Source: Procambarus clarkii (taxonomy: Eukaryota > Arthropoda > Malacostraca > Decapoda > Cambaridae). Taken from it: DNA of 64,000 bases. The stretch is taken from contig NC_091175.1 of assembly GCF_040958095.1 (NCBI RefSeq), positions 20,560,003-20,624,002 of the forward strand, written 5' to 3'. Below are positions 4,688-43,824 of this stretch, piece after piece (the stretch's first letter is position 1; each line of letters starts with the position of its first letter). The notes beneath the pieces are model-generated. The model saw nothing but the letters and a program-made list of their open reading frames with translations. It was not told where the DNA came from and made no database searches. The position numbers and the translations under genes were made by a program.

Positions 4688-4876
4688 TCAAGGTCTCTCC
4701 CCAGCAGCCAGTCTTCTGTTGATGTCCCTGACGACGGCTGGCACGTTACGAACGGAGTCGACGACGTAGTGGCTCCCAGCGTCCTGGAGCAGCTCGTAGG
4801 CTCGCGATAGCCTCCTCTCCAGGTCGTCTTTGGCCATCGTATCCAACTCCTGCTGTGTGGCTGCTACATAATTTCC
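4688..4876 (-). CDS. phnX: phnX exon 7 (terminal exon)
   Basis: Acceptor TTTTTGTTTTGCAG with a good pyrimidine tract; 189 bases including TGA. Encodes [20 protein letters not shown] to the C-terminus [11 protein letters not shown]. The [19 protein letters not shown] segment matches the conserved end of proteobacterial PhnX. It lies 3.3 kb from exon 6, across an intron filled with MITEs and SINEs. Confidence 0.93.
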
Positions 4877-5039
4877 CTGCAAAACAAAAAAATATACTTA
4901 AAATTTCACATCATATATAAAAAAATGAAATAATGCTTCTTAACATTTTGGGGGATATAAATTAAGTTGAGATTTTTTAGCTGAATTTGCCTGCCAGTCA
5001 CCTGCTAGAGTGCCTCGCTGGAGACATCAAGCCCTCGAC

Positions 5040-5082
<43 letters not shown>

Positions 5083-8000
5083 AATATTGTAATTTTTATT
5101 CACAAGAAGGTACAATGGGATTGTGAGACTACATAAGATTGATATTTTTACATTCTTGCAAAGCCACTAACACTCATACCGTTTTGGGCAGGTAAATAGG
5201 GGAGAACCCCATTACAAGTCGAGAGCTACCCCTATTTTGTTAAAGTTTCTCCAGGTATGGTCAAATGTAGAACTGTTTTTGCATCCACGGCTTTAATGAG
5301 TAGATTTCATAGGTATATTATTCTCTGAGAGAAGTATTTCTTGTATGTTTTTGAGTGATACTTGTGAAGTTTGAAGGTGTCTCGCATATGTGTCAATTGT
5401 CAGACTAATGTAATTAAACTTACTCAGTATTTTAAATGTCGCCGTGAAAACGGTTTAGTCGCGCCTTGTTTGAAAGTAAAACGAAAAAGAAACTAAATAT
5501 ACAACAAAGTACCAACCGGGTATGGCTATAGAACACTGTGCATGTCTAAGAGGGCTGGTCGAGGACCGGGCCGCGGGGACACTAAGCCCCCGAACTCATC
5601 TCAAGGTAATCTCAAGGCATATGTCACATAAGACTGAAGAGTATACCACTGAGACCCGTTCCTTCCCACCGCCTTGTCTCACACCCTCAACCCGTTCTCG
5701 CAAATTCGTAAAGTCAATATTGAGTTATTAACTACGTGCATAGGTGATATACTAAACATAACAGATACCCCTGAAAAGATTCATAGAAAACACCGACCTT
5801 ACCTAACCTTGTTAGTATATTAAGATAAGCATCTTATTGCTTAGTAATTACAATTATTACTTAACCTATACCTATTATAGGTTAGGTAATAATTGTAATT
5901 ACGAAGCAATAAGATGCTTATCTTAAGATACTAACAAGGTTAGGTAAGGTCGGTGTTTTCTATGAATCTTTTTAAGGGTATCTATTATGTTAAGTATGTC
6001 ACCTATGCACATATTTAATAAGTCAATATTGACTTATTAAATTTGCGAGAACGGGTTGCACACCCTTGTCTTCACATTGTTTACAAGTGCTTTGTAGTCG
6101 TACTCGCTTATCACTTTCTCCTTATAATTACCGTACCTAAATAGTACGGTATTTATGTACTAAATTTATTGATGTACTAAATAGTACAACAAACGTAAAG
6201 TACGTTTGATGGTAATTTTTTCCCCATGAACAACAAGGAAGATTTTGTAGTAAGAACTGTTGAGTATTGAAAGATTTTAGGCTATATGCAGTATTTTGGA
6301 TTGTTCTACAATAAATGGTATTTGATATTGCGAAAATCTTTGGTTTGATTCCACTGCCTTGCTCCAGAGTCTCAGACCACTCCATCGTCCATTGAACTGG
6401 TTGGTTGAGCGACAGCGTTCGATCCCCCTATGCCCCAAGTGGTTGGGCACCCTTCGTCCACTGTCATATCCCAGCTCCTATCCTGTCCTCATATCCCTGC
6501 CTAGTGCTATATAGACACATTGGCATACCACTTTCTCATAATTACCGTCCTGCTCTAAAGATTGTCCCATAGCTATATAAGGCAACTGTGATCTCATTGT
6601 GTATTTGATATTCTTTTGACAATGTGTAAAGCTTTTGTAGGTCGTATTGCATTGAGGTAAGGTCTCCTCTTGCTAGAAGCCCCGTTGTTGCTAGTGACTG
6701 TAGTACTAGTATTTGTACTAGCAAATGGCCACTAGAACTAGACCTCTGGGACTAACAGTACAGGTTGTAAATATTACTGGCGCCATTATTACCAATGTTG
6801 TTACCACTGTTCTCCTTAATGGTACTGATATTATGTGTATCTTATTATGACCTGTTCTACCAATCCTTGTACAATTCGTATTATAAATATTGGTACTAGA
6901 AATACTAGTATTCGTACTAGAACCACTAGTATTGAATAAATCCAGAGGAGTCTTGATGAGGGTTCGAACCTGTGTCCTGGGTGTTCCCAGGCGCGCTCTA
7001 ATCAACTACACCATGACATGGTCAAAAGAATTGCAACCTGGGGGTACTAATACACTTCATGGTCGAAATTCTTTTGACCATGTCGTGGCACAGTGGACTA
7101 GAGCGCGCCTGGGAACACCCAGCGCACAGGTTCGAATCCTCATCAAGGCTCCTGTGGATTCGTTCATTGATATATCACGTTACTGTGACTTCTCTGACTA
7201 CTAGTATTGGTACTAGGATCCAGTGTCACCGCGGCCCGGCCTCTATCAGGCTCCCTAGTTGATGGTCTGGTTAGTTGTTCGTGCGCTTTGCTCGCAGGCT
7301 GACGTGCGCACCACAGCCTGGTTGATCACGCACCAACTGGAGGCGTTTGTTATTCCCTCTTGTGTTATTGTCTTTGTTACTGGGTCTGCCCAGTGCCCTG
7401 GGTATGATAAGCCTAAGGAACCTAGGTGCCTTAGGGTCTTTGAGACCTGGTATTTGGTACCTGAGACCTGGGTACTAGTACACACCTGGCTGGGGTACTA
7501 GTACTAGGTATCTAGGGATACCTCCTCTACACAGGGGAGTATACCTTAGGGATACTGGTGACAAGGTGAATGACGGCGCCCTGAGAACCAGCCTTCAGCA
7601 CAGTGGTCTACGTCCTCGACTCGCAATCGAGGGAACCCTGGTTCAATCCCCGGGCAGGGCAAAATGAGCATTCGAGCACGTTTTTTTTCACCAAGGGAAG
7701 GGGACTTATCAGGAGAGAGCCCCAAGCGATTACTACAATACAGCACTTGGAAAGGATCAGGATAAGGATTCGGGATGGGACTCCAGCCAGATTCACGAAG
7801 CAGTTACGCAAGCACGTACGAAGCTGTCCATCTTTTCTCAATCTTTGGCGGCTTTGTTTACAATTATTAAACAGTTAATGAGCTCCGAAGCACCAGGAGG
7901 CTGTTTATAACAATAACAACAGTTGATTGGCAAGTTTTCATGCTTGTAAACAGTTTAATAAATGTAACCAAAGCCGTCAAAGATTGAGGAAAGATGTACA

Positions 8001-11000
8001 CGTTCGTAAGTGCTTGCGTAACTGCTTCGTGAATCCTGGTCCAGGTCCACCCCTAGGTTTATTGAGGTCCCCCCTAGATCAACTATTATATAGTTGATCT
8101 AGGGGAAGACCTCAATAAATCTAACAGATTTCCGGTCACCGACAACGGGAATAATTTACGCACCGTTTTGGCAATAGCGATTGTCCAGCACCCGGCGGCG
8201 AGTCCTTCCCGGATGCCATCCACCGAGTCATCCACCTTCACCAGGGCCTCCACGGGGCTGGCATCCAGGCGGATGGCATTCAACCAGACCTGTGTGGGAG
8301 ACGCTAAAACTAGTGAGGAGGGAAGAGTGTCTGGGCACCTTGGTGACGCTGTTACCGGTGTTGGGGTGGCTTGGTGCTTCCTGGTGCTGCTGCAACACTT
8401 GCTCCTCACTCACCTACTCACCATGCCTCGGTTGGGTCTACTCTGAATCAGGTTCCAGAGTCGTTGTTGTTGTTGTTATAGATTCAGCTGCTCGGAACAA
8501 GTTCCAAGTAGCACGGGCTATGGTGAGCCTATAACTTACCTGGCACAGGAGCGGGGCAAGTAGCACAGGCTATGGTGAGCCCGTAGTGGACTTACCTCGC
8601 ACAGGAGCGGTGCGAACCAGAGACTCACTGGACTCACTTAATCACCATGCTCAGTTATTCACCATATAGGGCATGGGTCTGGCCTGGGGCACCTTAGTCA
8701 CTCACCATATAGGGCATGGGTCTGGCCTGGGGCACCTTAGTCACTCACCATATAGGGCATGGGTCTGGCCTGGGGCACCTCGTCTGCAGCAACATAGGCA
8801 TCAGGGATGTACCCCTGGGCAGCAGCGAGGACCTTGAGCTCCTCCACAATGGGTGATGGGTAACCAGTACATGAACCAATCTTGATACCCATTTCTCGTA
8901 GTTGACTCACAGTCTCCACTGTACCTGTTGGCAAGATCCACGTTAACCACGGTTCATTAAACCTTTACTCATCCATATATGAAACCTGTACAACATGGCG
9001 GCTCTGTTTACATTTAATAAACTGTTTACGAGTTTGGAAATTTCACAACTCAAGGTTATTATTGTTATAAACGACCTCGTGGTGCTTCGGGGCTCATCAG
9101 CTGTTTAAGAAATGTAAACAACGCCGCCATGATTGCTGGAAGATGATCAGGTCTTGTAAATGGATGAATAAGTGATGAGTCTTGGCCCTGCGGCTGTGTA
9201 CTACCTGTGTTAATAATGGTCCTATGGTGCAGTGGTAAGCAATGACCAGTCACAGCCGAGTCACGGGTTCGATTATCGCGCCGGGACAGAAGTGTTTGGA
9301 CAACATTTCCTTTCACCTGATGACGCTGCTCACCTGGCAGTAAATAGTTACCCACCGGAGATAGTCAAGTGTTGGGGGTTGCATCCTGGAGGTCAGCTGT
9401 AGGCCGAGGGAGGACCTCGATAGTGGGAAGCCATCAGTGACATGAACTTCCCAAAGATGGCGTTCCTTCCTACAGATGTGTTGGAAGCCAGCAAATTTAT
9501 CATTAGATTAGATTTTTTATTTAGGTAAGGGGTACATACATTGAGTTACATACATAATGTTGGATTTAAAGATATAGTACATACAATACCTAAAGCCACT
9601 AGTACGCATAGCGTTTCGGCCAATCATGTCCTGTCATCTAGTAGCTCATCTTGCCCTGAATGTGCAGTTCCTCAGCAGGTAACACATTTAGTAGCCAGGG
9701 CCACAACTGGTCCCCTTGGCTCAGTCATATGGTCATTCTGAGCTCTCGTTGTCGGGGACAGGATGTCTGTACTTAGCCTTATCGAGGTCCGCCTAGGCCG
9801 ACTACTACTGACCTTCCCCAGGATGCAACCCACAATGGTTGCCTAACTCCCGGGTACCTATTGACTGCTAGCCCTGGAATCGGACCCAAGATCCCCCTGA
9901 TTGTGAGTCAAGACCGAAGCCAACTATGCTAGGAGACCTTGGGGTGTACACCTTGTAAAACTTACCATCGATCAAGGAGGAGTAGTTATGGAGGGCAGCA
10001 ATGTTCTTGGGGACAAACTTGGCGTACATGCGGTCGACGTCGTCTGGGGAGGGCGGGGCGCCCTTGGCCTCACACCAGCGGGCGCGGAGCCCCTCTGCCT
10101 CCACCATCTTCCCTATGTGTGCCTGATACAGTGTACTCACATGTTTTATCTCCATACTAAATCAACTCAATCATCCATGACATACAGCTTTCAATATAAA
10201 ATTTCATAATAATTAATAATAGCAACAACAATAAATAATAATTTTAGCATGAGGTGTGAGCCCGTAGTGGACTTACCTGGCACAGGAGCGGGGCTCTAAC
10301 TGTTGAAAAGCCTGGGTGTATTCATACACCTTAGGCTTATATCAACCCTTCCCCGGATACAGCCCCACAACAGTTGCCTAACTCCCAGGGACCTATTTAT
10401 TGCAATGTGAATAGAGACATTAGGTGAAAGGAAACGTGCCCAACCATTTTTGTCCCCCACGTTAATCAAGCCCGGGATCCTCGTTAATGAGTCGAGAACA
10501 AAGCCATGGCGGCTTAGTCTGTATTTAGTAATCAGTTTACGTGCTTCAGAGCTCGTAAACTTTAATAAATACATATCAGCCGGCATGGTCGAGGCAAGAG
10601 GAGAATATATCGTAAATGGAGAAAGGAAGGGGAAGGGAACTATCGGGATAAAGCGCCAAGGCATTACGACTATATAGCACTGGGAAGGGGACAGGAAAAG
10701 GATTTGGGGATGGGACGGGGGGAAGGAATGGTGCCCAACCATTTGGACGGTCGGGGATTGAACTCCGACCTGCATGGCGTGAGACCGTCGCTCTACAGTC
10801 CATCCCCAAGTGACGGAACGGACAAATAATGTGCGGGTTCTCAAGTAGGTTAATAGCCATCGTGAGCGAGAGATGTACAACACCACGGGAGACATCTCCC
10901 GTCACGCAGGGTGCAGTTGCACCTCCACAGATCTCCAGTATCATCTACTGATACTGGTTATGGCTCAAAAGGGCCACCGCTTACGGGCTATTCATGCCCG

Positions 11001-14000
11001 TGCCACCTTTTGGATGGATTAATGTTCATCATTCATTCATCGAGATGTACAATGGTTACCCGCTTGTGGATGCCCATGGGAGCCCTGGCCTCGTCGCTGG
11101 TCACCGGCACACCCTCCTCCAGGAACAGCTCCATGAAGGTCCCGGCCGGACACATCACGCCGCAGTCCACCACCGTCCCTGTCACAGGTTAAACACACGC
11201 CCCCCGGTTATGACAACTTTCTTTTTATTTTATTTGTTTATTTATTTATATACAATTAATTACATTGGGTTTATGAGAGTACCTATCATGATGTGTTTAC
11301 ATACTTGTAAAGCCGCTAGTACGCACAGCGTTTCGGGCAGATTCTTAACAAGCTTAGGTATACGCAACAATGTGCTGCTTCCTTATTCTATATGGAGGAT
11401 TATAGAAGCTCAAGAGCTAGCTGTGAGTTCATCTAATATTCCCATGAGAAAATTCCCTAGGAGTATGAGGTGGGCGCGAACCTACGATGTTGGCATTGCC
11501 CAGCCGCATACTCTACCACTAGACCACCGCTGACTAGTAAAGTCATGCAACCGGATTTTTAATGAAATTACAGGTAATCTGAAGGCTACTGAAGCCAGTC
11601 CAGCTTTTACGTATGACCCACAAGCACTCGGTCATATGGCCCATATTTACGTATGACCCACAAGCACTCGGTCATATGGCCCATATTTACGTATGACCCA
11701 CAAGCACTCGGTCATATGGCCCATATTTACGTATGACCCACAAGCACTCGGTCATATGGCCCATATTTGATATATATCACATGAATATGATTTATGTGTG
11801 TTTAATATCCCCCATCTCGCAAGTTGGTCATAGGCGGAATCAGGAGAAAACACAAGATGGAAATCTAGCCTACATTAGCCTGCAGTAGCAAACTCTGGGT
11901 AGAACACAAGAATAATTTCCAATGCAATATTTGTGAGTGTTTAAAGTAATTACAGAGCTCAAAGTATCTCATGCCACTGGGTTGAAAATAATTGATAACA
12001 AGGCACTCACAAATATAACAACAGAAATCGAAATTGAAATTGAAAAAAGTTTATTGAGGTAAAATACACACAAAGGGATGAGATAGCTCAAGCTATGCTC
12101 ACCCCGTTCAGTACATCGTGTTAATACATACATAGACACACATCACAAGCAATAAACGTATTACCGAACATTCTGAGAGATAAACATATACATTTCCTCC
12201 TTTACACAAGTATATATAACAACAGAAGTACACTTACATCGCATCAGGCTTGGATACCCATGTGCATGGGAAATAGGCTTACAGGTTCAGGAAGATGAGG
12301 GGAAATGCCCGACAGACCACTGGAACATTATCTAACACTGCACTGTTACAAACCCATTAAGATTTCAACTTAGATTCAACAGAGCAGAAGTTATTTAAAC
12401 ACATAGAACAAAAATCTTACTGAAGCGACCATACGAGTCATAAATACTCATACTCCGCCTAAGTAAAACAGAAACAAGCAACACTTAGTGGGCCAGCCAG
12501 AGGCTTAGGGCCCGCGCAGGAATATCCCTGCAAAAAAAAAAAAAAGGTGACATACTGACCTGCCCAATCGAAGATGACTGCCTTGACCTTGCCACGGTAT
12601 CGCCTGGTAACCTGGTATTCACTCCGCGGGTTGACCAGCACTTCGTCTGTAGAGAGGGAAACAATGGCTATTACTTCCAGTTAATGCTTCTCCGTATATT
12701 ACATCAATGTCAATGAAGAAATAATGTGTTCATATTAGACCTAGAAGTGATCTACACATCCCTTATACTGACGTCACACAGTCATCTGGTTTCTGGTTCA
12801 ACCTTGAAGCCGAGCGGACGTCTGGACACCTCCTCCGCCTGGGAGCCGCCGGATCACGTCTTGTTTTCGCGTTTTGGCTTTGCTACTGCCGTTTGGCATC
12901 CCTTTTCAACGGTCCGGTTGTACGACGGACCGTTGTATGACGGACCGACCCACCAACCCCCGGCTTGGCCGAGAGGTGCCGGGGGTTGGCGGGTCTTGAT
13001 GGGCTCTGGTGTGCCCTCAGCCGTGGTGGGCGGCCGGCTTCTGCTCTGCCGGAGGACACTGGATGACTTTTGCGTTTTGGTTGGGGTCCGAGTTTTGGTT
13101 TTGCTACCTGGTGTTCTCTGTGTGGGGCGGGGCCGGTGCTTGTCACCCTACGGGACTCCTGGGACTCCCCAATCATCTGCCCGTATGTGCGTTTATTTGC
13201 CGTATGGCATATTAGTTTCTAGTGATTGGCGTCACTCGTTTCGCGTTTTGCCTTGGCGTTTCACCTTTCCGGGCTTCGCGATTCACCCATCACGGGTACG
13301 CCGGGGCGCATCCGATCCCACGATCGTCGTCGCCCCTAAATCAACAACAACAACAACACAGTCATCTGTTAGTATTTACGTCGCCTTTTTGCAGGCGGGT
13401 CTAAAACCCGTGCCAGTGAAAATTATGACGTCATAATGACGACACATTCCTCATACACAGCGTATATAAAACACAATTCCTTATCTTTTACTTTCGTTAG
13501 ATTGTGTTGGGTTAGAATTGGTGTGATTAAAAATTCGGGTTGGCGTAAAGGGGTACATACATTTCTCGTGTTTTAGACTCTAAACCCCAGACAATAAGGG
13601 AACCATATACGTCATCCCTCTCTTTTAAACAAACGTAACCTAACCGACCACAACTCCTGAGTCCTGACTACCTTAATGATAGTTCTGTTACTCATTGGCC
13701 ATGCGGCCCAGTCTCTAACTAGGCCTTCTGGGTAGTGGTCTGGTCAACCAAGTTGTTAGACACAGTTGTTGTTGTTTAAGATTCAGCTACTGGGAACAAA
13801 AAGTTGCAAGTAGCACGGGCTATAGTGAGCCCGTAGTGGACTTCCTACGTTCCCACCCACCGAACAAGTCTATGTGGGTGGGAACGAGGACAGGTTGACT
13901 AGTTTAGCAGTTACCAGGGATGATGTTATTAAACAAATAGAGAAACTCAAACCAAACAAATCCCCAGGGCCGGACGAAGTGTTTGCCAGGGTGCTTAAAG

Positions 14001-15840
14001 AATGCAAAGAGGAGTTTGCGAGCCATTGTCTACCATATTTAATAAATCATTAGAGTCAGGCTGAGTGCCAGAGTCGTGGAAGGTTGCTAATGTGGTACCA
14101 ATTGGATGGAGGGGGGGGCAGTGTGCAGGATAAACACATCAATTGTGACACTTGCTCTCCACATATGTCAGTTGCTTAATTTAGAAACTGTACTTGTGGT
14201 CGATCTCGAACCCATTGATGATGTGACGACTTATACTGAATTTTGTAAGTAGCTCAAGATTTGTATCTTGTTCAGCTAAATTAATTGTGAGGTTCAGTCT
14301 CTGAGCCCACTATGTGCCTCTGTAACCCTTTCCACTACCGCCCACAAGATGGGTATGGGGTGCATAATAAATAAACTAAACCAAAAACTAACAGCTAACT
14401 TCTTAATCTAACTGATAAAAGTAAGAGTATTAATAGGTACATTGTAGCAGAATTGGAATTTAACATAATAACTATAATATAAATCGATAGCATTACTTAT
14501 ATTGGTGACATTTTGCACGTCTTAAGTACTAATATTGAGGAATTGGGTAGTACAAGATACAGTGTGAGTTTAAAGCACAAGGTAGGAAACTATGAGGATG
14601 AAATTAGGTAATTTTTGGTTTTACTTTTGAATAAGCATAGATTGGAATTTTGTTTAATTCATTAGAGAGAAAGAGATCCATACACTTGGTCCTTTTAGTT
14701 GCAATGAGCGTTTGCACAGATTTAGCCTGACTCTAGGAATATTAAAGATATATTTATTTCTGGTGTGGTGGTCATGGGTTCTATTATATCTATCACGGAA
14801 TCAGTTTCATCTCAAGAGTAGCATTCAGGAACAAGGTATTGTACATGTAAATAGCACAAGAGAATGTGTGGAGAGAGTGTATGTTTAGCATGTTTAGGGA
14901 CTTAAACAGAGGGGCTGTGTGTTGTCTGAAGACAGTTTGTTATAGTTGCTATAAATGACTTGATATCAACATTAAACTGTGTAACTAGCTTATCAAGACT
15001 GGAACTTGCTTAACTAAATGAATTTTGGGGTTCAGTTCTGTATATGTGCCTCCGTAACGTTTTCCAATACCACCCACCGAATGGGTCTACTGCTACTCAC
15101 AGGTTGGGTATGGGGTCTACTGCTACTCACAGGTTGGGTATGGGATCTACTGCTACTCACAGAATGGGGTATGGAGTCTACTGATACTAAATGCATCAGA
15201 ATTATTGTAAATCTGATACGATATTTACCTTAAAAATGCAGAACTGCCCGGGGGAAGCCTATGCTACATAACCTTGCATGTTTAATTCACCACGAAAGCC
15301 ATAATAACTGCATCATCTCAATAGGAAGCGTCTTTTCCATGTGAGTGGCACCAAATTTGTTATAAAATGCTTGTGCACGGTTTATGAAGGAGGCAGCCAT
15401 ATAGAGCGCACAGCCCCCGGGAGAGGCTATGTAGCCAGCCCGTCCCCTCCAGCGTCACTTATTAACTGATGTACTAAACTGCCCAAACTTAACCCGATTA
15501 TGGACACACGAATAAAAAACTGGGCATTACGTCAATTTTGTGTGGCGCTATGGACTAAGTACAAAATGTGACGTTCTACTCATGAAGACGAGTTGCCAAT
15601 GTACCGTCTGTGTCACAGATAATTATAGCTTTAATATATCGTGCATAATTACATTTTTACTAATATCACTATTATTATGATGTCTGCAAGTGCCTGTCAA
15701 CTAAAGAATGTACTGAAAGCGGGATTAGGAGCTGATGCACGAGGCAATGTTCACAAAACTGGCGCACTATATGCTCAGATGACTCGTCTTGCAGTAAATT
15801 GGTGACATGTATACTTACCCTTTATATGGTGCATCTCCAT
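4688..15840 (-). CDS. phnX: Phosphonoacetaldehyde hydrolase (phosphonatase), complete 7-exon gene
   Basis: Seven exons join in frame to a 300-residue HAD-superfamily protein. Family chemistry: a Schiff-base lysine and an aspartate nucleophile hydrolyse phosphonoacetaldehyde to acetaldehyde and phosphate, the last step of 2-aminoethylphosphonate breakdown. Visible motifs: nucleophile loop FDWAGTVVDCG (Asp34); cap-domain MGIHK (Lys75, expected Schiff-base residue) with a nearby His79; KIGSCTGYP (152-160) in core motif [11 protein letters not shown] (184-192); [12 protein letters not shown] acidic loop (214-225); C-terminal HYVVDS and [14 protein letters not shown]. Length fits bacterial PhnX (about 270) plus an N-terminal extension of about 25 residues. 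The ATG at 15840 is the first after an in-frame stop. No signal peptide is evident, so it is probably cytosolic. The closest recalled resemblance is to proteobacterial PhnX. No partner gene, such as the AEP transaminase, is seen here. Function is inferred from motifs. Confidence 0.9.
5040..5091. repeat. (AAT)n/(ATT)n microsatellite, palindromic
   Basis: About ten AAT units run straight into about seven ATT units, forming an inverted microsatellite at the poly(A)-side end of the neighbouring minus-strand LINE fragment. Confidence 0.85.
5092..5215 (-). mobile_element. LINE-B 3' end
   Basis: Minus-strand 3' end with the conserved module that reads, on its sense strand, GCCCAAAACGGTATGAG then TAGTGGCTTTGCAAGAATG and a GGTACAATG/CTTCTTGTG end. 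Same end as the LINE-B copy at 49385-49523; 5'-truncated. Confidence 0.75.
5547..5622 (+). mobile_element. Fragment of tRNA-derived SINE (S3) 3' end
   Basis: Contains GGTCGAGGACCGGGCCGC, GGGGACACTAAGCCCCC and the AATCTCAAGG end, the last quarter of the SINE complete at 28464-28715. Confidence 0.8.
5688..6058. mobile_element. Palindromic MITE, hAT-like, with 8-bp target duplication
   Basis: A 371-bp foldback. The ends CAACCCGTTCTCGCAAATT and its complement extend into arms of about 150 bp each, matching for most of their length, around an AT-rich centre with CCTAACCT motifs. The flanks carry the same 8-mer CACACCCT (5680-5687 and 6059-6066). An 8-bp duplication with CA/TG ends points to hAT transposase mobilisation. 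It sits in the last phnX intron; no coding capacity. Confidence 0.88.
6395..6550 (+). mobile_element. tRNA-derived SINE (S2), decayed
   Basis: A tRNA-like head with a GGTTGGTTGAGCGACAG D-arm/A-box region and GTTCGATCCCC (B box), followed by the S2 tail with GGTTGGGCACC and TAGTGCTATATAGAC. Confidence 0.7.
6935..7175. mobile_element. Head-to-head inverted pair of tRNA-derived SINEs
   Basis: A minus-strand copy (6935-7025; GGTTCGAACCTGTG, CTGGGTGTTCCCAGG) faces a plus-strand copy (7065-7175; CACAGGTTCGAATCC). The shared outer parts GACATGGTCAAAAGAATT and AATTCTTTTGACCATGTC give a hairpin of about 90-bp arms around a 30-bp loop. Both heads have recognisable A and B boxes. Confidence 0.75.
7225..7340 (-). 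mobile_element. SINE tail fragment (S4)
   Basis: GCGGCCCGGCCTC, GGTCTGGTTAGTTG and GCTCGCAGGCTGACGT match the tail at 17095-17180 and, more weakly, 13695-13760. Confidence 0.55.
7560..7786 (+). mobile_element. Composite tRNA-like SINE head plus reversed S2 tail
   Basis: A tRNA-like head (CAGTGGTCTACG A-box region, CCTCGACTCGCAATCGAGG anticodon arm, GGTTCAATCCCCGGG T-arm) is followed by sequence that matches the S2 tail only when read on the minus strand. The two halves are opposed, suggesting either two insertions or an inversion. Confidence 0.65.
7787..8039. mobile_element. 253-bp foldback MITE, copy 1
   Basis: Ends CCAGATTCACGAAGCAGTT and the complement of CCAGGATTCACGAAGCAG form long arms that continue through AAGATTGAGGAAAGATG and GTAAACAGTTTAATAA. 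A possible 5-bp repeat TCCAG flanks it. The copy at 15963-16215 has exactly the same length. Confidence 0.85.
8164..8289 (-). CDS. phnX: phnX exon 6 (acidic loop)
   Basis: Acceptor TCCCACACAG, donor GTGCGT; 126 bases in phase 0. Encodes [20 protein letters not shown] through CWTIAIAKT. It includes the KVDD loop that binds Mg2+ in HAD enzymes and the GLAAGCWT segment shared with bacterial PhnX. Confidence 0.93.
8464..8630 (-). mobile_element. CAA-tailed SINE-like repeat, two partial units
   Basis: (GTT)n then GATTCAGCTGCTCGGAACAA, a CAAGTAGCACGGGCTATGG block and GAGCCCGTAGTGGACTTACC. The CAAGTAGCAC to CAGGAGCGG part occurs twice in tandem. Related copies at 10243-10300 and 13764-13845. Confidence 0.7.
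8659..8788. repeat. 43-bp triplication of the exon 5 splice-donor end
   Basis: TCACCATATAGGGCATGGGT begins at 8659, 8702 and 8745, an exact 43-bp period. The third copy is the real 3' end of phnX exon 5 with its donor; the other two are intronic duplicates that keep the GTGAGT donor. The copies look identical, so the event is recent. Confidence 0.92.
8749..8924 (-). CDS. phnX: phnX exon 5 (core motif II)
   Basis: Acceptor TTGCCAACAG, donor GTGAGT; 176 bases, phase 1 to phase 0. Encodes [20 protein letters not shown] to [11 protein letters not shown]. The exon end with its donor is repeated twice more downstream (see the 43-bp triplication), so three identical donors compete. Use of either extra donor would add VSD and a stop. 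Confidence 0.93.
8985..9150. mobile_element. Foldback MITE related to the 253-bp family
   Basis: ATGGCGGCTCTGTTTACATT and its near complement AATGTAAACAACGCCGCCAT flank a centre that includes CGTGGTGCTTCGGGGCTCAT, the same central motif as in the 253-bp MITEs. The outer ends are lost or different. A further decayed piece is visible at about 10500-10590. Confidence 0.7.
9215..9440 (+). mobile_element. tRNA-derived SINE
   Basis: Head GGTCCTATGGTGCAGTGGTA with a GGTTCGATTATCGCG T-arm, then the common decapod SINE body: TTTCCTTTCACCTGATG, CACCTGGCAGTAAATAG and a GAGGACCTCGATAG end. Confidence 0.75.
9515..9640 (-). mobile_element. LINE-B 3' end
   Basis: Minus-strand LINE end: on the plus strand a TTTTTTATTTAGG start, GGGGTACATACA, then AAAGCCACTAGTACGCATAG and CGTTTCGGCC. 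Strongly 5'-truncated. Confidence 0.75.
9765..9940 (-). mobile_element. tRNA-derived SINE, minus copy
   Basis: Reads on the minus strand as a tRNA-like head (decayed) followed by TAGGTACCCGGGAGTTAGGC-like and GGATGCAACC blocks. It abuts exon 4 of phnX on the intron side. Confidence 0.6.
9966..10149 (-). CDS. phnX: phnX exon 4 (cap domain)
   Basis: 184 bases encoding [20 protein letters not shown] through NYSSLIDG. It carries the helical cap segment with the family-typical sequence around [15 protein letters not shown]. The donor GTAAGT is strong. The acceptor TATGGAG is pyrimidine-poor and is the least certain boundary of the gene. Confidence 0.85.
10243..10500 (-). mobile_element. SINE cluster, minus copies
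   Basis: A fragment of the GAGCCCGTAGTGGACTTACC repeat (10255-10300) is followed by a decayed SINE (10310-10500) with CAGTTGCCTAACTCCCAGG, GGTGAAAGGAAACGTGCC and CCCGGGATCCTCG. Confidence 0.6.
10615..10815 (-). mobile_element. tRNA-derived SINE (S2), near-complete
   Basis: On the minus strand: head GGGGATGGACTGTAGAGCGA (A box) and GGAGTTCAATCCCCGACC (B box), then GGTTGGGCACCATTCC and the tail with CAGTGCTATATAGTCGTAA. It is the clearest full copy of the S2 family in the window. Confidence 0.8.
10884..11030 (-). mobile_element. SINE-like repeat S1, minus copy
   Basis: Reverse complement of 51-199, ending only 30 bp from phnX exon 3. Hairpin blocks are conserved, including ACGGGAGACATCTCCCGT. 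Confidence 0.75.
11060..11178 (-). CDS. phnX: phnX exon 3 (cap domain, Schiff-base lysine)
   Basis: Acceptor CCTGTGACAG, donor GTAACC; 119 bases, phase 1 in and phase 0 out. Encodes [19 protein letters not shown] through [13 protein letters not shown]-two residues-K is the PhnX cap-domain signature. The alignment suggests one residue more than bacterial enzymes at the exon 3/4 joint. Confidence 0.92.
11220..11342 (-). mobile_element. LINE-B 3' end
   Basis: T-rich start (poly(A) side), ATTACATTGGGTTTATGAGA, then TTGTAAAGCCGCTAGTACGC and AGCGTTTCGGGCAG. 5'-truncated copy within phnX intron 2. Confidence 0.8.
11606..11769. repeat. 40-bp tandem repeat, 4 copies
   Basis: TTTACGTATGACCCACAAGC plus CACTCGGTCATATGGCCCATA repeated at 11606, 11646, 11686 and 11726 with no visible differences, a recent local expansion inside phnX intron 2. 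The unit holds the dyad GGCCATATGACC. Confidence 0.93.
12026..12225 (-). mobile_element. LINE 3' end (family D)
   Basis: A GAAATTGAAATTGAAA tail (poly-TTCAAT on the sense strand), AGTTTATTGAGGTAAAATAC, CACCCCGTTCAGTACA and GAGAGATAAACATATAC are shared with 53253-53440. Confidence 0.75.
12560..12646 (-). CDS. phnX: phnX exon 2 (nucleophile motif)
   Basis: Acceptor CTCTCTACAG and donor GTCAGTATG frame an 87-base exon that enters and leaves in phase 1. It encodes residues 8-37, ending in VKAVIFDWA with the catalytic aspartate of HAD motif I; the glycine after it is split over the intron. Confidence 0.92.
12789..13355 (+). mobile_element. 567-bp CAA-tailed retroposon with 13-bp target duplication
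   Basis: Flanked by exact 13-mers ACACAGTCATCTG at 12776-12788 and 13356-13368. The right end is a (CAA)n tail preceded by CGCCCCTAAAT. GC-rich interior with several TTCGCGTTTTGG-like motifs and no conserved protein. The first part recurs at 3440-3827. The exact duplication and tail show reverse-transcribed insertion; whether it is a LINE 5' UTR piece or a SINE is open. Confidence 0.85.
13422..13470 (+). promoter_or_regulatory. CRE palindrome plus TATA box
   Basis: The 16-bp perfect palindrome ATTATGACGTCATAAT (13422-13437) contains the CREB/ATF site TGACGTCA. A TATATAAA box follows at 13463-13470, in promoter-like spacing. A second TGACGTCA is at 12769-12776. It lies in phnX intron 1 and faces the opposite way to the gene. 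No plus-strand gene was recognised downstream, so activity is only a possibility. Confidence 0.4.
13471..13695. other. Intron sequence, nothing recognised
   Basis: AT-rich sequence downstream of the CRE/TATA pair; no conserved open frame or RNA gene. Confidence 0.4.
13696..13860 (-). mobile_element. SINE fragments (S4 tail and CAA-tailed repeat)
   Basis: Matches 17095-17180 (GGCCCAGTC, CTGGTCAACCAAG, GTTGTTAGAC) and then 8464-8600 (GTTGTTGTTTAAGATTCAGC, AGCACGGGCTATAGTGAG). Confidence 0.65.
13895..14099 (+). mobile_element. CR1-like reverse transcriptase fragment
   Basis: The plus frame reads [20 protein letters not shown], then a decayed stretch ending in a WKVANVVPI-like block, the N-terminal fingers of CR1-group reverse transcriptases. 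It contains an in-frame stop and a frame slip near 14030-14060, then stops abruptly at the LINE-A end. Confidence 0.8.
14100..14383 (+). mobile_element. LINE-A 3' end, joined to a CR1 fragment
   Basis: Starts at ATTGGATGGAGGGGGGGGCA, equivalent to the block at 50148, and runs to GGGTATGGGGTGCATAATAA plus an A-rich tail. The upstream partner differs from that at 3828, so this 3' end has been captured with different 5' parts. Confidence 0.8.
14384..14640. other. Intron sequence, nothing recognised
   Basis: AT-rich; short poly(A)-like continuations of the LINE-A tail, no gene. Confidence 0.4.
14641..14935 (-). mobile_element. LINE-B C-terminal fragment
   Basis: The minus strand carries the decayed LINE-B tail: an [14 protein letters not shown]-like block (plus-strand GACTCTAGGAATATT and TTATTTCTGGTGTGGTGG) and an FNSLNMLNI-like stretch, as in 29777-30127 and 48600-48890. 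Internally damaged. Confidence 0.65.
14965..15190 (+). mobile_element. LINE-A 3' end with internal 34-bp tandem expansion
   Basis: AACTAGCTTATCAAGACTGG and a TAAATGAATTTTGGGG block lead into the final GGGTATGGGG motif. That motif is expanded with CTACTGCTACTCACAGG into about three units of 34 bp (15085-15180). Decayed. Confidence 0.65.
15191..15818. other. phnX intron 1, 5' part; nothing recognised
   Basis: No transposon or conserved exon seen. A GC-richer patch at 15405-15465 could be regulatory but has no clear motif set. Confidence 0.4.
15819..15840 (-). CDS. phnX: phnX exon 1 (start codon)
   Basis: Codes MEMHHIK plus one base. The donor GTAAGTATAC follows at once (gene strand) and is near consensus. 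An in-frame stop lies upstream with no ATG between, which fixes the start. The split codon joins exon 2 to give Asp8. Confidence 0.75.
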
Positions 15841-18752: not shown

Positions 18753-21700
18753 CTGAAAAAGAAAGTAACATGAGAAGATAAAACTAAGTACAGGGTAAAA
18801 AAATTTGCAAAAAAAAAAAAAAAAAAATACAATTAATTTTACACTTTCGCACTTTAGATTAGAGATAACTCGTCACCGTTTTTTCTTACGATTCCGCATA
18901 ACAGACTACTTTTGTAGTCCATCGAAAAAATATTTCTATAAATTCCATTTTCTAACCGAAATGGATGGGGATACTCTCAGATTTTTCTCCATGAAATTCC
19001 CGTTCTCCCTCACCGAACACATGGCATCTCGGCATAATTTTGATCACATGGTCAAATATTATGAGTTTGCAAGAAAAACCCACAAATGGACCAAGAAGAT
19101 CACTTTCTATTTTCTGCAAATGGCCATGCACAATGCATACGCATTGTATAACCACTTCTCAACAGATACAAAAAAACTAACACTATTAGAGTTTCACGCA
19201 GTAGGAATAAAAGCCTTATTGGCGTGGAACAGCGAGGAATGGCCAACAACAACAAGCATACCACATGTTCCCGACATAGATGCCAGCGCAGCTCCTCCTG
19301 CTGACGCAGCAGTTTCAACACCCGGCCCATCTGGTGCAAGGCGTCCTCTGTTCACCTCAACACCTCAAGCCCACTCATCAACCACAAATTCTGAAATGGA
19401 CATTGAGGACATAGAACCACTTGATGTTTCTGATTTCATAGAAGATTCTACTACAAGTTTGGTGGTTCCTGTAGAAGACAATATTCCTCCAGTGCATCCA
19501 AGAAATACAAGAATTATAGATTCAGAACAACGTCTCAACTACAAGTTGACGCATGAACTCGTGCACTTGGCTAAAAAAAGAAGATGCCGTGTTTGTTTCA
19601 AGTCTGGCAAAAGGAGGGACGTGATATATGGATGTAAAACTTGTGATGTGGCACTGTGCGCTGCGCCTTGCTACACAAGGTACCACCGAAGAAAGATATT
19701 TTGGGTGGAGAAAAAATAACCACCGGCAACAGCTTCACTCCACCTAAGAAACACCAGATGAGCAACTTCAGGATCAGAAGCCTGAAGATGGTGGAGTGAA
19801 GAAAAAATGCTCAACTGTTGATCTTCAATCAACATAGACAGGGTAAGTACACCTATTTGGAATTTATCATCTATAAGAAGTTATATTATATACGTTTTGT
19901 AGAGAATTTATTTGCGAATTTTTTGGTACCAGAATGAATATTATATCACATAAACTTCTATGAGTAAAAAAAAAAAAACACAAAGTATGTTTGGGGGTGT
20001 GGCGGGTGTGGCTCTGGGTGTGGCGGGCATGTGGCAGTGGGTTCCCTTTAGCCGTTGATATATCCAACACGTGGGAAATATTTGTATGTGTTATGTATAT
20101 GTCTGTGTAGGGAATTTTACTGCGATCACTGTCATACAAATTATAAAATGTTTCAACAAGTAAATTATAAAATGTTTCAACAAGTATAAACATGACAAAC
20201 ATCAAACGAACAAAAACAATGCGTTCGTTTCTGCCGCGAACGCATACTGAGCGACGTGGTTCTATATTTGGCGCTTCTCATACACATGCTTTGTACAATT
20301 GTTATACATTTCATCTTATAGAAAATTTTATTGCGAACACATTGGTATAAAAAAGAAATACGTACATAGAAAAGTAGGGTCAGGAAACGTATAAATGTAT
20401 AAACTTTCCAAGCATGATTTCCCCCCTGTGTTTTCGCCAGTGCGCTCGCGGCTAACTACTCTCCACTTCACACACTCTTGCGGGTGGGCAATTACCTATA
20501 TTAAACATTCATATGCATATGTCCGTGTAGAGAATTTTATTGCGATTCCAATGATACCAAAATTAGCGATGTAGGACAACTGTAGGCTTCGCAACCATTA
20601 AGAGAGTGGAAACATTTTGTTGCTGTTTGGCGCTCTCGGCAAGTGATCTGCATAGTTTTTTATTTGGTGTTGATACTCCTTATGCTTGGGCGGCATTTTA
20701 TAGGTATGCTCTTATAGACAATTTCATTGCGAACACAGTGATACCAAATTTAAATACGTGCGCCTTCAATTATTGTCAGGACAGTCAAAAGAATGTACAC
20801 TTTTTCGGTCTTACCGCGTAGGCGCGCAAAGTGCTGAAAGCATCTGGGGTATTGTTTTTTTTTGAGCGCCGAGAGCGCGAAAGTGTTAACTTCTGTACCT
20901 GAACCCATCTTCTAATCTACCTAGTGTACTGTACAGTACTACAATTTCAACACTGCCGAAACCACATTAAAATCAACACACTTTCTTGGACGGATGGTTA
21001 TCAGCCATGATAGATTGGGTGGGTTGCTTAGGTTCGAATACTTATGGCTCAGTAAATCCATTTTACAATTTATACTCGTGAAATCATGAGGACAGGCAGA
21101 GTATCTCAATTTTTCAGTATTTTGAGTACTTAATAAGTAGCAAGTGGCAGAAAAGTTAAGACAATGCAATCACAATATGGGGGTTAGATGCTTTCCTGGA
21201 AGGCTTCAGTTGTACCCACAAGGATAAAACCTCAATTCATAGCTTGGATCAAAACAAGGTGGTAAGTGTCATACATGTTATTCTGCCACCCTTGAGATGA
21301 ACTGGGGTGAGCAGGATCAAATCTAGCAGCAACAAAGCCTTAACCTTATTAGTCCTCACTCCACATATTGTCTGACATTCTCAAACCACTAACAAGTGTG
21401 TCATACCAGTTTAAAAACATTGCCCGAGTAAATTGTGCAGTCTTACTGCTGTAGCAGGGTAGTGGTAGTGTGTTCATACAATATTTTATTGATTCTAGAC
21501 TTTGCAGCCTTATCCACAACTACACACTTTGCCCTATTAGAGGCATTAGCACAGTAAAGCAAAGACTCTTCCCTTGCCATACTGGATTTTCATATGTAGT
21601 GTAGCAGGTGACTTTTGAGAGTTAATTTTCCTGTCTAGAAACATATGTAATTTTCTTCACTGGTCTTCAGATATATCATATTATATGTAGCAGTACCCTA

Positions 21701-31246: not shown

Positions 31247-31277
<31 letters not shown>

Positions 31278-31321
31278 GGTAGCCATAGGTACCTATATAC
31301 CATAGGTACATAGGTAGCCAT

Positions 31322-32549
<1,228 letters not shown>

Positions 32550-32553
<4 letters not shown>

Positions 32554-32936
32554 GTACCTAGTAGCCAGAACTCACTTCTCAGCCTACTATTCAAGGCCCG
32601 ATTTGCCTAATAAGCCAAGTTTTTCTGAATTAATATATTTACAATAATTTTTTTCTTATGAAATGATAAAGCAACCCTTTTCTCTATGTATGAGGTCATT
32701 TTTTTTTATTGGAGTTAAAATTAACGTAGATATATGACCGAACCTAACCAACCCTACCTAACCTAACCTAACCTATATATATAGGTAAGGTTAGGTTAGG
32801 TAGCCGAAAAAAGCTAGGTTCGGTTAGGTTAGGTAGGTTAGGTAGACTAAAAAACATTAATTCATGAAAACTTGGCTTATTAGGCAAATCGGGCCTTGAA
32901 TAGTAGGCTGAGAAGTGCGTTCTGGCTGTTAGGTAC

Positions 32937-32940
<4 letters not shown>
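32550..32940 (-). mobile_element. TA-flanked telomere-motif MITE, unit 3
   Basis: 391 bp, same orientation as unit 2 and very similar to it. Confidence 0.88.
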
Positions 32941-33020
<80 letters not shown>

Positions 33021-33024
<4 letters not shown>

Positions 33025-33407
33025 GTACCTAGTAGCCAGAACTCACTTCTCAGCCTACTATGCAAGGCCCGATTTGCCTAATAAGCCAAGTTTTCATGAA
33101 TTAATTGTTTTTCGACTACCTAACCTACCTAACCTAACCTAACCTAACTTTTTCGGCTACCTAACCTAACCTAACCTATAAAGATAGGTTAGGTTAGGTT
33201 AGGTAGGGTTGGTTAGGTTCGGTCATATATCTACGTTAATTTTAACTCCAATGAAAAAAAATTGACCTAATACATAATGAAATGGGTAGATTTATCATTT
33301 CATAAGAAAAAAATTAGAGAAAATATATTAATTCAGGAAAACTTGGCTTATTAGGCAAATCGGGCCTTGCATAGTAGACTGAGAAGTGAGTTCTGGCTAC
33401 TAGGTAC

Positions 33408-33411
<4 letters not shown>
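33021..33411 (+). mobile_element. TA-flanked telomere-motif MITE, unit 4
   Basis: 391 bp, orientation of unit 1, with centre ATAAAGATAGG. Confidence 0.88.
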
Positions 33412-33488
<77 letters not shown>

Positions 33489-33492
33489 CTCT

Positions 33493-33580
<88 letters not shown>

Positions 33581-33584
<4 letters not shown>

Positions 33585-33967
33585 GTACCTAGTAGCCAGA
33601 ACGCACTTCTCAGCCTACTATGCGAGGCCCGATTTGCCTAATAATCAAATTTTTCATGAATTAATTGCTTTTCGACTACCTAACCTACCTAACCTAACCT
33701 AACCTAACTTTTTCGGCTACCTAACCTAACCTAACCTATAAAGATAGGTTAGGTTAGGTTAGGTAGGGTTGGTTAGGTTCGGTCATATATCTACGTTAAT
33801 TTTCACTCAAATAAAAAAAAATTGACCTCTTACATAATGAAATGGGTAGCTTTATCATTTCATAAGAAAAAAATTATAGAAAATATATTAATTCATGAAA
33901 ACTTGGCTTATTAGGCAAATCGGGCCTTGCATATTAGGCTGAGAAGTGAGTTCTGGCTACTAGGTAC

Positions 33968-33971
<4 letters not shown>
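33581..33971 (+). mobile_element. TA-flanked telomere-motif MITE, unit 5
   Basis: 391 bp, shares the ATAAAGATAGG centre and GACCTCTTACATAATGAAAT part with unit 4; probably a duplicate of it. Confidence 0.88.
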
Positions 33972-34037
<66 letters not shown>

Positions 34038-36551: not shown

Positions 36552-39500
36552 TGGCGCCCCACCCTGAGAATACTGTGGTGTTTTGGAATGCCCGCTCCCT
36601 TTTTAAGAATACGCAATTTTATCGCCAGCGCACCACCGTTGATCGTGGGACTCTGTGAGACTTGGCTTACTGACAATCTTTCCTTCACAGTGCTGCGGTA
36701 TTCGGTCTATAGACAAGATCGGCCAGTACGGGGTGGAGGGGGACTTGCCCTCTTGGTCAGGGACTCAGTTCCCAGCTCCTTGCTCCGAATTCACTCCTTC
36801 CCGGGTGGGCATTTAGAATTCATGGCAGTGAAGGTGCCCCTCTCCCATGGGTGGGGCACCTTTGGAGTTCTGTATAACCCCTGTCTACCAGTAACGAAGA
36901 AGGAACTAGAACACTATTTTCGTCAGATCACAGACACCTGCCTCGTCATGGGTGACTTTAACGCTCGGGACTCATCATGGCAACCTATGCTATCGGATCG
37001 CCACCACAACATTGCTGGCCGAGCCCTATTTCAGTTTCTCCTTGACTCCCCAGACCTCTCCTTACTGACGCCGCCAGGAACTAGGATAGACCCGCTAAAT
37101 GGACATACTTCAATGCTCGATCTTTGCATTGGAAGAGGCCCCTTCACGATGGCGCAGATATGGACCGGGCCATACCTGGGTAGTGATCACCTGCCCATCG
37201 TCATCTCCTTCGGGGGTACTGTTCGTCCTGCTGTGACCTCCCGAAGATCCAAATGGATCTTCTCGGAAGGGGGGAGGCATGGCTATGAGGCGGATGACTG
37301 GTCGACCCTTCCCGCAGTTACTGCAGATCTGCATGGGTCAGCGGATGCTCTCTCTGAGTCCCTCTTCAGTGTAGGCTCTCGGCATTTCAGGAGGACTAGT
37401 GGCCAGACAACCAATCCTTCCCGCCGTGGGGCACCGTGGTGGAATCCTGAATGTCGGCAGGCAGTACTGGACCGGCGACGTGCGCGGCGCCACCCTACTC
37501 CACTGCAGCGGCAGACCTTCCGCAGGGCGGACGCCAGGTGTAGACGAACAGTCCTCCTTGCCAAACGCAAGGCCTGGGCTGATTACCGTGCCACTCTCCG
37601 ATTCGACTCCTCTGCGGGAGCCTGGGCCTTTGTTCGCAAGATGACAGGTAGGTACTCCCAGCCTTCCATCCCACTCAGAGACCCCAGGGGTAATGGGGAC
37701 CTGGGGGAAGTACAAATAGCCGAACTCTTGGCTGACCACTTTGAAGATGTTTACCGTTCCCCGCTCCTTTCTGTGAGTTCTATAGGATGGGACAGGGTAT
37801 AGGACTAGCTCAGGACCTGGATCGTCCATTTACATCTGTTGAGCTGAAGGACGCTCTGTCACTCTCTAGGTCGGGCACTATGCCAGGGATAGACAACGTC
37901 CCATATGAATTTGTTCGGAGGGCACCCAAGATCCTTCAGTCCCACCTCCTTCACTTCTACAGCGCCTGCTGGACTCCTGGTGTCTTCCCTGACCCGTGGA
38001 AACACGCCATTCTTCTACCATTGGCCAAGTCAGGGAAGGATCCGTCTGTCCCGAGTTCATATCGGCCCATAAGTCTGTTTCCATGTCTCCGGAAACTGAT
38101 GGAACGCCTTGTTCACACCCGGCTACAATGGGTGGTGGAAACCTCAGGTCTTCTACCAGAGGGTATCAGTGGATTTCGGCCGGGAAGAAGCACGATGGAC
38201 TGCCTCCTCTCCTTGGAACATCGAATAATGGACACTTATCGCCGGAGAAGTGTTCCTTGCAGCATTCTTCGACATCAAGAGTGCATTTGACTCTGCTTCT
38301 CATTCTGCTGTCCTTCAGAGTCTGGCTCGAGTAGGTCTCTCGGGTCCGGCGTTGAGGTGGTTCCAAAACTATCTACAGGGCCGCTCATTCAAAGTGGCGG
38401 TTGGTGGAGTCTTCTCTACGTCCCGCCCTGTCTCGAGTGGTGTTCCCCAGGGAGCGATTCTGAGCCCACTATTATTCTCTATTCTTCTGTCTGATCTCCC
38501 TGTATTCCGGGGGGTCCAGGTTTTAGCCTATGCCGACGATGTAACCCTCGTGGCGGATAGTGCCACTCTCCTAGAGGCACAACGCTTCCTGCAAAATGCC
38601 GTGACTGTGTTCTCAGCAACTGTGCTGGGGAAGGGGCTCTCCATTAACCCTGTGAAAAGTTGCGTCATGAGTTTCACCTGGACCCGCTTACCAGACCAGC
38701 CAGTGGTGACCGTCGGGGGCTGTCGTCTCCCGATCGCTACGGAACACAGGTGGCTGGGGGTCGTTCTAGATAGCCCTCGGCTGACGTGGAGGCATCATAT
38801 GGACTACCTTCGGGCCTCATGCCTTCGTCGCTTGAACATCTTGAAACGGCTCTCTGGTGCGGCATGGGGGCTTCACGGGAGTCGCTCCTAGCTCTCTATA
38901 AGACCTTCATTCGTAGCAAGATCATGTATGCGAGTGAAGTCTATGGCTCAGCAGCAGCATCTGTCTTGGCAAGGCTGGATCCCATTCAAAATGATGCCCT
39001 TCGATCAGCGCTAGGAGCTATGCCCTCCTCGCCAGTTCTTTCTCTCCATGCCGAGTCGGGGCTATGGCCCCTGAGCTTTGAACGTCTTCTCGCCCACTGC
39101 CGCCAATTTCAACGGATAGTGCGTCTCCCTGCTACCCATCCACTTACTCGCCTCCAGCTCGAGGCTAACTGGTGGACGTGCCGGCGTCCAGCCGGCACGG
39201 CTGGACGCTCCCGACGTCGTCAGTTGCCTTTCGTCGTCCGGGCCTTGGCTGCATATTCACAGTTTTCCCTTCCCGTCCCTGTACTCACCCCTGGCCCGAT
39301 CATCTCATCGGTGCCTCCGTGGGCAGAAGAGCTCATTCGGGTTTCTGTCGACTTTTCCAAGCCTCCTCGTCGGAAGAGAGATTTAGAGGGTTTGGCCCCT
39401 TTAATTTTTGCAGACCTACGAGCCTCCTTATACTCTGGATACTTGGAGGTTTACACGGATGGGTCCCGCAAAGATCAGCCACCATCTACATCTGCGGCAG

Positions 39501-40346
39501 CATACTTTGCTCCTTTTTCCTTCTGTCAGACGTGGAAACTCTCCCCTGCTCATTCGTGCCTGGCTGAGGAACTGTTTGCAATCTTACTAGCCTTACGACT
39601 CCTTCGACAAGTTTCAGGGCCCTCTGCAGTCGTTTTCTACGTGGACTCAGTTACAGCCCTACATCTCATATCATCTCGGCGTCCACGAGTCCATCGTCAT
39701 ACTGTGTTACAGATCCGCGGAGAACTGCTGTCATACTCTGGTACTCCGGGTTGGTCCTTCTATCTCCAATGGGTTCCGTCACATGTCGGTATTAATGGCA
39801 ATGAGGTGGCCGACGCAGCAGCAGGGATGGCGCATGCCCTCCACGACTCTACAAATGTGCCTCTAGACCTTTCCGAAATTCTCCCGCAACTCCGGGCGGC
39901 TTGCCTCGCGAGCTAGGAGGCAATGATGGAGCCAGCACTCAGGTCCTCCTCTCTGTCGGGTCTCCGGGAGGACTTCTCCCCGCGTCCATGGACTCGTCAT
40001 CATTCTCGACACTGCCATCACTCGTCTCCGGATTGGGCACACCTGCCTGGCCGCACATCTCCATTGTCTACGGCTGATAGATTCCCCATACTGCCAGTGG
40101 TGTTCGACCCCGGAGGATACAGTGGAGCACCTTCTTCTTCACTGCCCTCGATTTCATAGCGCTCGCGTCAGACTACAGAGTGCCGTTCGTAGGCTGAATA
40201 TTCCCCGCCTCACTGTTCCAGTTCTCCTTGACGGGGCAGGTGCGAGAGACGAAGACGTCTGTCATGACATCCTTCGCCATACCTTCCGCTTCATCCGTCA
40301 TGTCCGTGGCCTGAAGATAATACAGATTACTACTCGCCGCCCGTAA
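36552..40346 (+). pseudogene. LINE ORF2: endonuclease - reverse transcriptase - RNase H
   Basis: Domains in order: apurinic-type endonuclease (36588-37250; LCETWLTD, MGDFNARDSSW, GSDHLPIV), linker with reverse transcriptase fingers (37787-38250; SYRPISL, GFRPGRSTMDCL), palm (38250-38890; FFDIKSAFDSASH, SSGVPQGAILSPLLF, YADDVTLVADS), thumb, RNase H (39440-39860; YTDGSRK, SCLAEELFAILLAL, YVDSVTALHLI, WVPSHVGINGNEVADAAAG) and a CQWCSTPEDTVEHLLLHC finger near the end. About four frame changes (near 36590, 37800, 38270 and 38800-38890) and a break after 39916. Domain order and RNase H put it in the I/R1 group. The 3' end (CGCCGCCCGTAA, 40335-40346) abuts the Gypsy integrase. Confidence 0.9.
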
Positions 40347-43300: not shown

Positions 43301-43771
43301 CCGGTCTGCCAGTGTAGCCAGCTGGGCTAATGGGGTGTCGTCAGCCATACTGAATAGGGCCGGTTGAATGTGTTTTGGACAGAGTTGTATCCACAGTGAT
43401 CTCACAATCTCGCTGGGGGCTGGGCCAGTTGCAGTATGCATCACATACTTAATATGCCGCAGAAGCTGAGCTGGTGTTTTGTCTGCTAATCTTTTGTCAG
43501 TGAGGAGTTGGTCCCTTTGTTGAATGCGGCGTTTCATTGCTGCCTGTAGAAGAGCGGCCTTCAATGCAGTGTACGTCCTGGTGTCCGGTGATGGCGCGGT
43601 GATGACAGCGGAGGCAGTGTGCATAGCCTCCGAGGGAAGTGTTGGCAGGGTACAGGCATATCGGGCTTTCTCAGTCGAAATTTCGTGAAGGTCGAAAATA
43701 GCCTCCATCTGCATGAACCAAGATTCTGGCTCATCTGCGTTGTATGCTGGAAACCTGGTAGATAAATCCAT
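40347..43771 (-). mobile_element. Ty3/Gypsy LTR retrotransposon, internal region (fossil)
   Basis: Minus-strand parts in order: gag with a CCHC-type knuckle (about 43771-43037), aspartic protease with the DTGA motif (about 43000-42900), reverse transcriptase with YIDDLL (about 42500-41850), RNase H (about 41750-41300) and integrase with the HHCC and DDE core (about 41150-40350). Broken in a small number of places and cut off at the integrase end by the LINE. One LTR (43825-44135) adjoins gag in the expected place; the other in-order LTR is missing. Confidence 0.88.
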
Positions 43772-43824
43772 GGCGAAGATCTAGTTTGTGACTAGGTGTT
43801 CTTTTTCACTCACTGGGTCACCAA

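Follow-up and report, generated by a model that had tools for sequence, protein, structure and literature searches.

Among animals, the closest described systems are the few in which a gene for PhnX (phosphonoacetaldehyde hydrolase, also called phosphonatase; EC 3.11.1.1) has already been reported. An anthozoan PhnX, Seriatopora_14494, was scored as a horizontal transfer from a dinoflagellate source with a support of 100 (PMC4878875). The hemocyte proteome of the snail Biomphalaria glabrata includes a PhnX-like protein (XP_013069854.1) together with a 2-aminoethylphosphonate (2-AEP) transaminase-like protein (XP_013069189.1) (PMC6281880), and bdelloid rotifers are reported to carry foreign PhnX transcripts (PMC3499245). 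A 2023 review describes phosphonates as more cryptic in eukaryotes than in prokaryotes (PMC10574752). In the open-access literature that we searched, there was no report of a crustacean PhnX, and automatic PhnX annotations are likely to be present in public crustacean genomes.

We analyzed a 64-kb stretch of DNA (here called the window) on contig C26 of a 4.03-Gb crayfish assembly and conclude, with a probability of roughly 0.8, that a malacostracan crustacean has here, at a single locus of its nuclear genome, an intact gene for a bacterial-type PhnX. Because animal PhnX was already known from anthozoans, a snail, and bdelloid rotifers, the crayfish gene is a useful further example and no surprise. 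It is likened to the anthozoan gene by description, both being PhnX in an animal genome, but the latter is cnidarian and has a stated dinoflagellate source (PMC4878875). An annotated animal PhnX is likewise common to the snail and the crayfish; however, the snail has the transaminase XP_013069189.1, and none was found in the crayfish genome. The rotifers resemble the crayfish in having a foreign PhnX in an animal but also have foreign transcripts for PhnW and phosphonopyruvate decarboxylase (PMC3499245).

The exons were tested with a profile that was compiled from 82 rows of bacterial PhnX (80 loci plus two PDB chains) and run on the 2075 stop-free six-frame segments of at least 20 residues in the window. 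The profile recovered exons 2 to 7 in collinear order at 20.4 to 75.5 bits each (Table 1), compared with 5.3 bits for the best non-exon segment of the window and no more than 5.1 bits in six control sequences (one reversed window and five 3-base-block shuffles), which disposes of a chance open frame. The seven exons run along the minus strand from 15840 to 4688, and the introns between them measure 3172, 1381, 937, 1041, 459, and 3287 nt, in phases 1, 1, 0, 1, 0, and 0. As the original prediction had it, all six introns have GT-AG borders, the exons join without a frame error or internal stop, and the motifs DWAG and PMGxx[21 protein letters not shown] are present in the spliced protein. The predicted length of 300 residues needs correcting, since the coding sequence of 876 nt gives 291. 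Scored against the 82-row profile, the spliced protein reaches 359.9 bits, with residues 18 to 291 on profile positions 3 to 276.

Table 1. Exons of the crayfish PhnX gene, in window coordinates, with their scores against the bacterial PhnX profile
Feature	Position	Strand	Content	Score or basis
Exon 1	15819..15840	-	ATG, 7 codons + 1 base (22 nt), donor GTAAGT	Rests on ATG, donor, and frame
Exon 2	12560..12646	-	N-terminal tail and nucleophile loop DWAG; Asp34 = B. cereus Asp12	20.4 bits
Exon 3	11060..11178	-	Cap start, PMGxxK; Lys75 = Lys53 (Schiff base)	50.6 bits
Exon 4	9966..10122	-	Cap domain; His78 = His56	45.8 bits
Exon 5	8749..8924	-	KIGSCTGYP (Thr148, Tyr150); Arg182 = Arg160	75.5 bits
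Exon 6	8164..8289	-	KVDD loop; Asp208 = Asp186 (Mg ligand)	49.8 bits
Exon 7	4688..4876	-	C-terminal block [15 protein letters not shown] and stop	57.8 bits

Apart from exon 1, the gene structure is established, and the exons are presumably spliced in this way in vivo. Exon 2 offers no ATG ahead of DWAG, and its frame runs into a stop upstream at 12683, so some 5' coding exon is required. Where we place that exon is a guess guided by an ATG, a good GTAAGT donor, and the frame; its 7 residues have no homology support and are too short for a homology test. A 43-bp tandem repeat (8659..8780, plus strand; 2.8 copies, 100% identical) spans the 3' end of exon 5 and its donor. The frame is kept by the first donor (8748) only, the second leading to a stop, and the repeat is either a recent expansion or an assembly error.

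The gene is part of the host genome because a segment of intron 3 (10850..11040, plus strand) carries a dispersed host repeat with close copies on 27 other contigs (at least 59 matches on 28 contigs, the query itself included, with 40 of 2029 first-look candidates scored). The assembly contains one PhnX locus: six genome matches were obtained at E ≤ 10, and all are exons of this gene. The same genome has hemocyanin clusters (31 matches), and the one cluster tested against the PDB matched 1hc1 (664.6 bits) and 6l8s (646.3 bits), which we take to be spiny-lobster and shrimp proteins, far above 3ixv (287.5 bits), presumably from a horseshoe crab; the host is therefore probably a malacostracan crustacean. 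Together with the six introns, the intron 3 repeat and the hemocyanin bear out the earlier proposal of an animal gene with introns.

The window also holds several mobile elements and repeats. Overlapping frames at 36552-39913 (plus strand) encode the endonuclease, reverse transcriptase, and RNase H of a non-LTR-type retroelement, and another non-LTR-type reverse transcriptase fragment lies at 47583-48215 (plus strand). Facing the first of these is an LTR-type retroelement in pieces (40176-43780, minus strand), with integrase, reverse transcriptase/RNase H, and a DUF7041 frame. A 306-residue open frame at 18799-19716 (plus strand) ends in a DDE_Tnp_1-like zinc finger (26.9 bits) and is perhaps, we assume, a piggyBac-type remnant. 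At 31250-34033, a 441-bp tandem unit and short tracts resembling TTAGG (ACCTA/TAGGT) are mixed in with long AT arrays. Both ARAGORN and Rfam call a tRNA-Thr (CGT) at 51864-51934 (plus strand), which may be a genuine gene or may belong to a tRNA-derived repeat.

Assignment to the PhnX family is clear. The spliced protein scores 296.8 bits against TIGR01422, the NCBIfam model for PhnX (cut-off 220), over the whole profile (positions 1 to 251 of 251). The runner-up NCBIfam models are PhnX-like (75.9 bits; cut-off 218.9), PcrP (57.6 bits; cut-off 240), and bacterial phosphoglycolate phosphatase (47.6 bits; cut-off 180); since each of these scores falls below the model's own cut-off and far under that of TIGR01422, we reject all three identities. 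A better match to another HAD family was sought and none was found, and the PhnX identity first proposed for the gene is thereby upheld. The Pfam matches are to general HAD models only. In the PDB, the top seven of 11 matches are PhnX or PhnX-like, the best being 3iru (205.1 bits) and Bacillus cereus 1rql (186.2 bits). The PhnX-like 3iru we take to come from Oleispira. The crayfish protein aligns with these bacterial enzymes (B. cereus 1rql/1fez and 3iru) over their full length, has the catalytic residues in common with them, and ends at its C terminus as 3iru does; it differs in its identity of 36 to 39%, in being encoded by a spliced gene, and in having Val44 for Cys22.

The active site is largely that of the bacterial enzyme. 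The crayfish protein is the same as B. cereus PhnX at Asp12, Ala14, Met49, Gly50, Lys53, His56, Thr126, Tyr128, Arg160, and Asp186, and roles in the B. cereus mechanism have been described for most of the residues named here (PMC7916636). The nucleophile Asp34 and the Mg ligand Asp208 are kept and occur in 82 of 82 bacterial rows, as do the Schiff base Lys75 of the cap and its neighbors Met71 and Gly72, while His78 occurs in 81 of 82. Arg182, Thr148, and Tyr150, equivalent to B. cereus Arg160, Thr126, and Tyr128, are all kept as well. Among the columns that are at least 95% conserved in the 82 bacterial rows, the crayfish protein agrees at 38 of 42, the departures being Cys46, Ala181, Ser209, and Ala234. 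Asp207 and Gly212 replace B. cereus Gly185 and Asp190; at either site, 61 of the 82 bacterial rows have the letter of the crayfish protein.

A further difference lies at the position of B. cereus Cys22, a residue that holds the Mg water and whose replacement by Ser lowers the activity of that enzyme (PMC7916636, PMC11203657). Achromobacter enzymes with Cys22Ser, Gly185Asp, and Asp190Gly are functional, although less efficient than the B. cereus enzyme (PMC11203657). The crayfish protein has Val44 here, where the bacterial rows have Ser (67 of 82) or Cys (15 of 82) and never Val (0 of 82). In our reading, Ser or Cys at this site is usual for PhnX and does not define it, and the change bears more on activity than on kinship. 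Val44 is the sole real doubt about the enzyme activity predicted from the sequence.

We infer that the crayfish protein acts on phosphonoacetaldehyde. Lys75 would form a Schiff base with the aldehyde of this substrate, most likely as in bacteria; Asp34, binding Mg together with Asp208, would attack the phosphorus; and the C-P bond would be cleaved, with release of acetaldehyde and phosphate. In bacteria, a PhnW-like open reading frame adjoins PhnX in at least 52 of 80 loci (within a fetched flank of at most 3 kb, some loci being short), from which the usual role of the family is seen to lie in the 2-AEP pathway; the figure is 11 of 22 for the bacterial loci of the 24-row tree set described below. 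In two Myxococcota bins (L043 1750-3801 and L045 1123-3801), PhnW and PhnX lie in one open frame, whose identity with the queries is 48 to 51% in the PhnW part and about 48% in the PhnX part; this is likely a natural fusion of two pathway steps.

PhnW, for which a search of the same genome had been proposed, was not found there with three queries. TIGR02326 gave 0 matches at E ≤ 0.001, a Planctomycetota PhnW protein (L004) gave 0 at E ≤ 10, and TIGR03301 gave four weak matches at E ≤ 10, of which three are collinear on contig C6 (the best of the four scoring 30.8 bits) and the fourth is on C46 (16.9 bits). A search of the 64-kb window alone returned nothing better than E 0.9. As a candidate PhnW, the C6 gene was rejected: the one 64-residue exon tested reached up to 77.7 bits with serine-pyruvate/alanine-glyoxylate aminotransferases and 3-hydroxykynurenine transaminase, and 0 of its 21 matches was a PhnW entry, whereas bacterial PhnW matches PhnW structures first. 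Judged by these similarities, the nearest PhnW relative in the crayfish genome is an AGXT-like gene on C6. For a sensitivity control, 52 bacterial PhnW rows were cut into 55-residue pieces and searched with models from rows less than 50% identical. For every one of the 52 rows the best piece scored between 63.2 and 88.6 bits, and the third best scored at least 55.6 bits, so a PhnW of such divergence with ordinary exons should be detected. The control makes the absence firmer, although a PhnW could still escape such searches if its exons were shorter, if it had diverged more strongly, or if it fell in gaps of the assembly.

The genome also gave 0 matches at E ≤ 0.001 to the models for PepM and for phosphonopyruvate decarboxylase (Ppd), each searched without a sensitivity control of its own. 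The original argument from phosphonate head groups in marine invertebrates thus finds no backing here, and because the two models found nothing, the phosphonates used would be dietary or microbial. We consider that the enzyme would serve the salvage or detoxification of phosphonates from food or microbes, and of these uses we favor salvage, whatever step may lie upstream of it. Of the proposed recycling of phosphonate, the general idea remains plausible, but the pathway is incomplete because PhnW was found neither by the three queries nor at the sensitivity shown by the control.

PhnX may have work to do even where PhnW is missing, because bacterial enzymes other than PhnW can make phosphonoacetaldehyde as well (PMC12366243). 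Class III aminotransferase exons gave 17 matches in the crayfish genome, including some on contigs C17, C40, C66, C80, and C89, and two of these exons were typed by PDB search. For the exon on C89 (L106), the top match is ethanolamine-phosphate phospho-lyase 6tor (79.7 bits, the next match scoring 57.3), and the exon on C66 (L095) likewise has 6tor as its first match (82.4 versus 69.8 bits). Contig C89 apparently carries two class III aminotransferase genes (L103, L106; C89:9424693-9430628) on opposite strands about 50 kb apart. A hybrid C-P cleavage pathway, in which PhnX operates without PhnW and an animal PLP enzyme (from the AGXT-like gene on C6 or the ethanolamine-phosphate phospho-lyase-like genes on C89) supplies the phosphonoacetaldehyde, is a speculative idea with rather low odds. 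An active protein of the PhnX fold with a changed substrate or a reduced phosphonatase activity is improbable: Val44 in place of Ser or Cys, the four departures from conserved columns, and the failure to find a PhnW that would supply the substrate are in keeping with it, but the protein retains the Schiff base Lys75 along with the rest of the named catalytic residues, and the score lies far above the TIGR01422 equivalog cut-off.

The foreign ancestry of the gene is plausible, and it was probably acquired long ago from a non-animal source. Its bacterial relatives (the best 80 of at least 580 from a genome collection) are 38 to 48% identical to it in the best segment, and its identity to the 82 bacterial rows is 36 to 47%. 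A scan of IMG/VR gave 471 pattern matches with no relative among them. We built a tree of 83 rows, made up solely of the crayfish protein and the bacterial rows, with a sample biased toward query-like rows. In the free tree, the crayfish PhnX falls in a 24-row set of Chloroflexota, Planctomycetota, Acidobacteriota, Myxococcota, and others (99/96), on an end branch of 2.11. When it is made to group with 57 Pseudomonadota, one Actinomycetota, and 3iru, the tree is worse by 0.65 log units (p-AU 0.5). Because the end branch is long and the Pseudomonadota grouping is not rejected, no donor is shown; the suggested gain from proteobacteria lacks support, and a donor of that kind is neither supported nor excluded by this tree.

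Two other accounts of the origin have to be weighed. Bacterial contamination or a chance open frame might be suspected in that the family is mainly bacterial and at least 580 bacterial relatives are in the genome collection, yet the gene has six introns, a host repeat in intron 3, and retroelements in the same window, its identity never exceeds 48% in the best 80 of those relatives, and none of the 53 plasmid records with a match reaches 60% identity; we regard this account as negligible. Far more serious, although we hold it at somewhat under even odds, is that PhnX is an old animal-wide gene, common to corals and molluscs and lost in many lineages, with no transfer into crustaceans. The reports of PhnX in anthozoans (PMC4878875) and in the snail proteome (PMC6281880) favor such an old gene, as do the six introns and the distance of the crayfish protein from all compared bacterial rows, but the coral PhnX was itself scored as a transfer from a dinoflagellate source with support 100 (PMC4878875). 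Acquisition from a non-animal source, our preferred reading, is compatible with an event in crustaceans and with one in an earlier animal ancestor.

A proteobacterial donor therefore cannot be assumed. With this gene, a crustacean joins the few animal groups reported to have the C-P bond-cleaving PhnX. The locus makes it possible to test whether an arthropod can free phosphate from the phosphonates in its food and, should PhnW truly be lacking, where the phosphonoacetaldehyde comes from.
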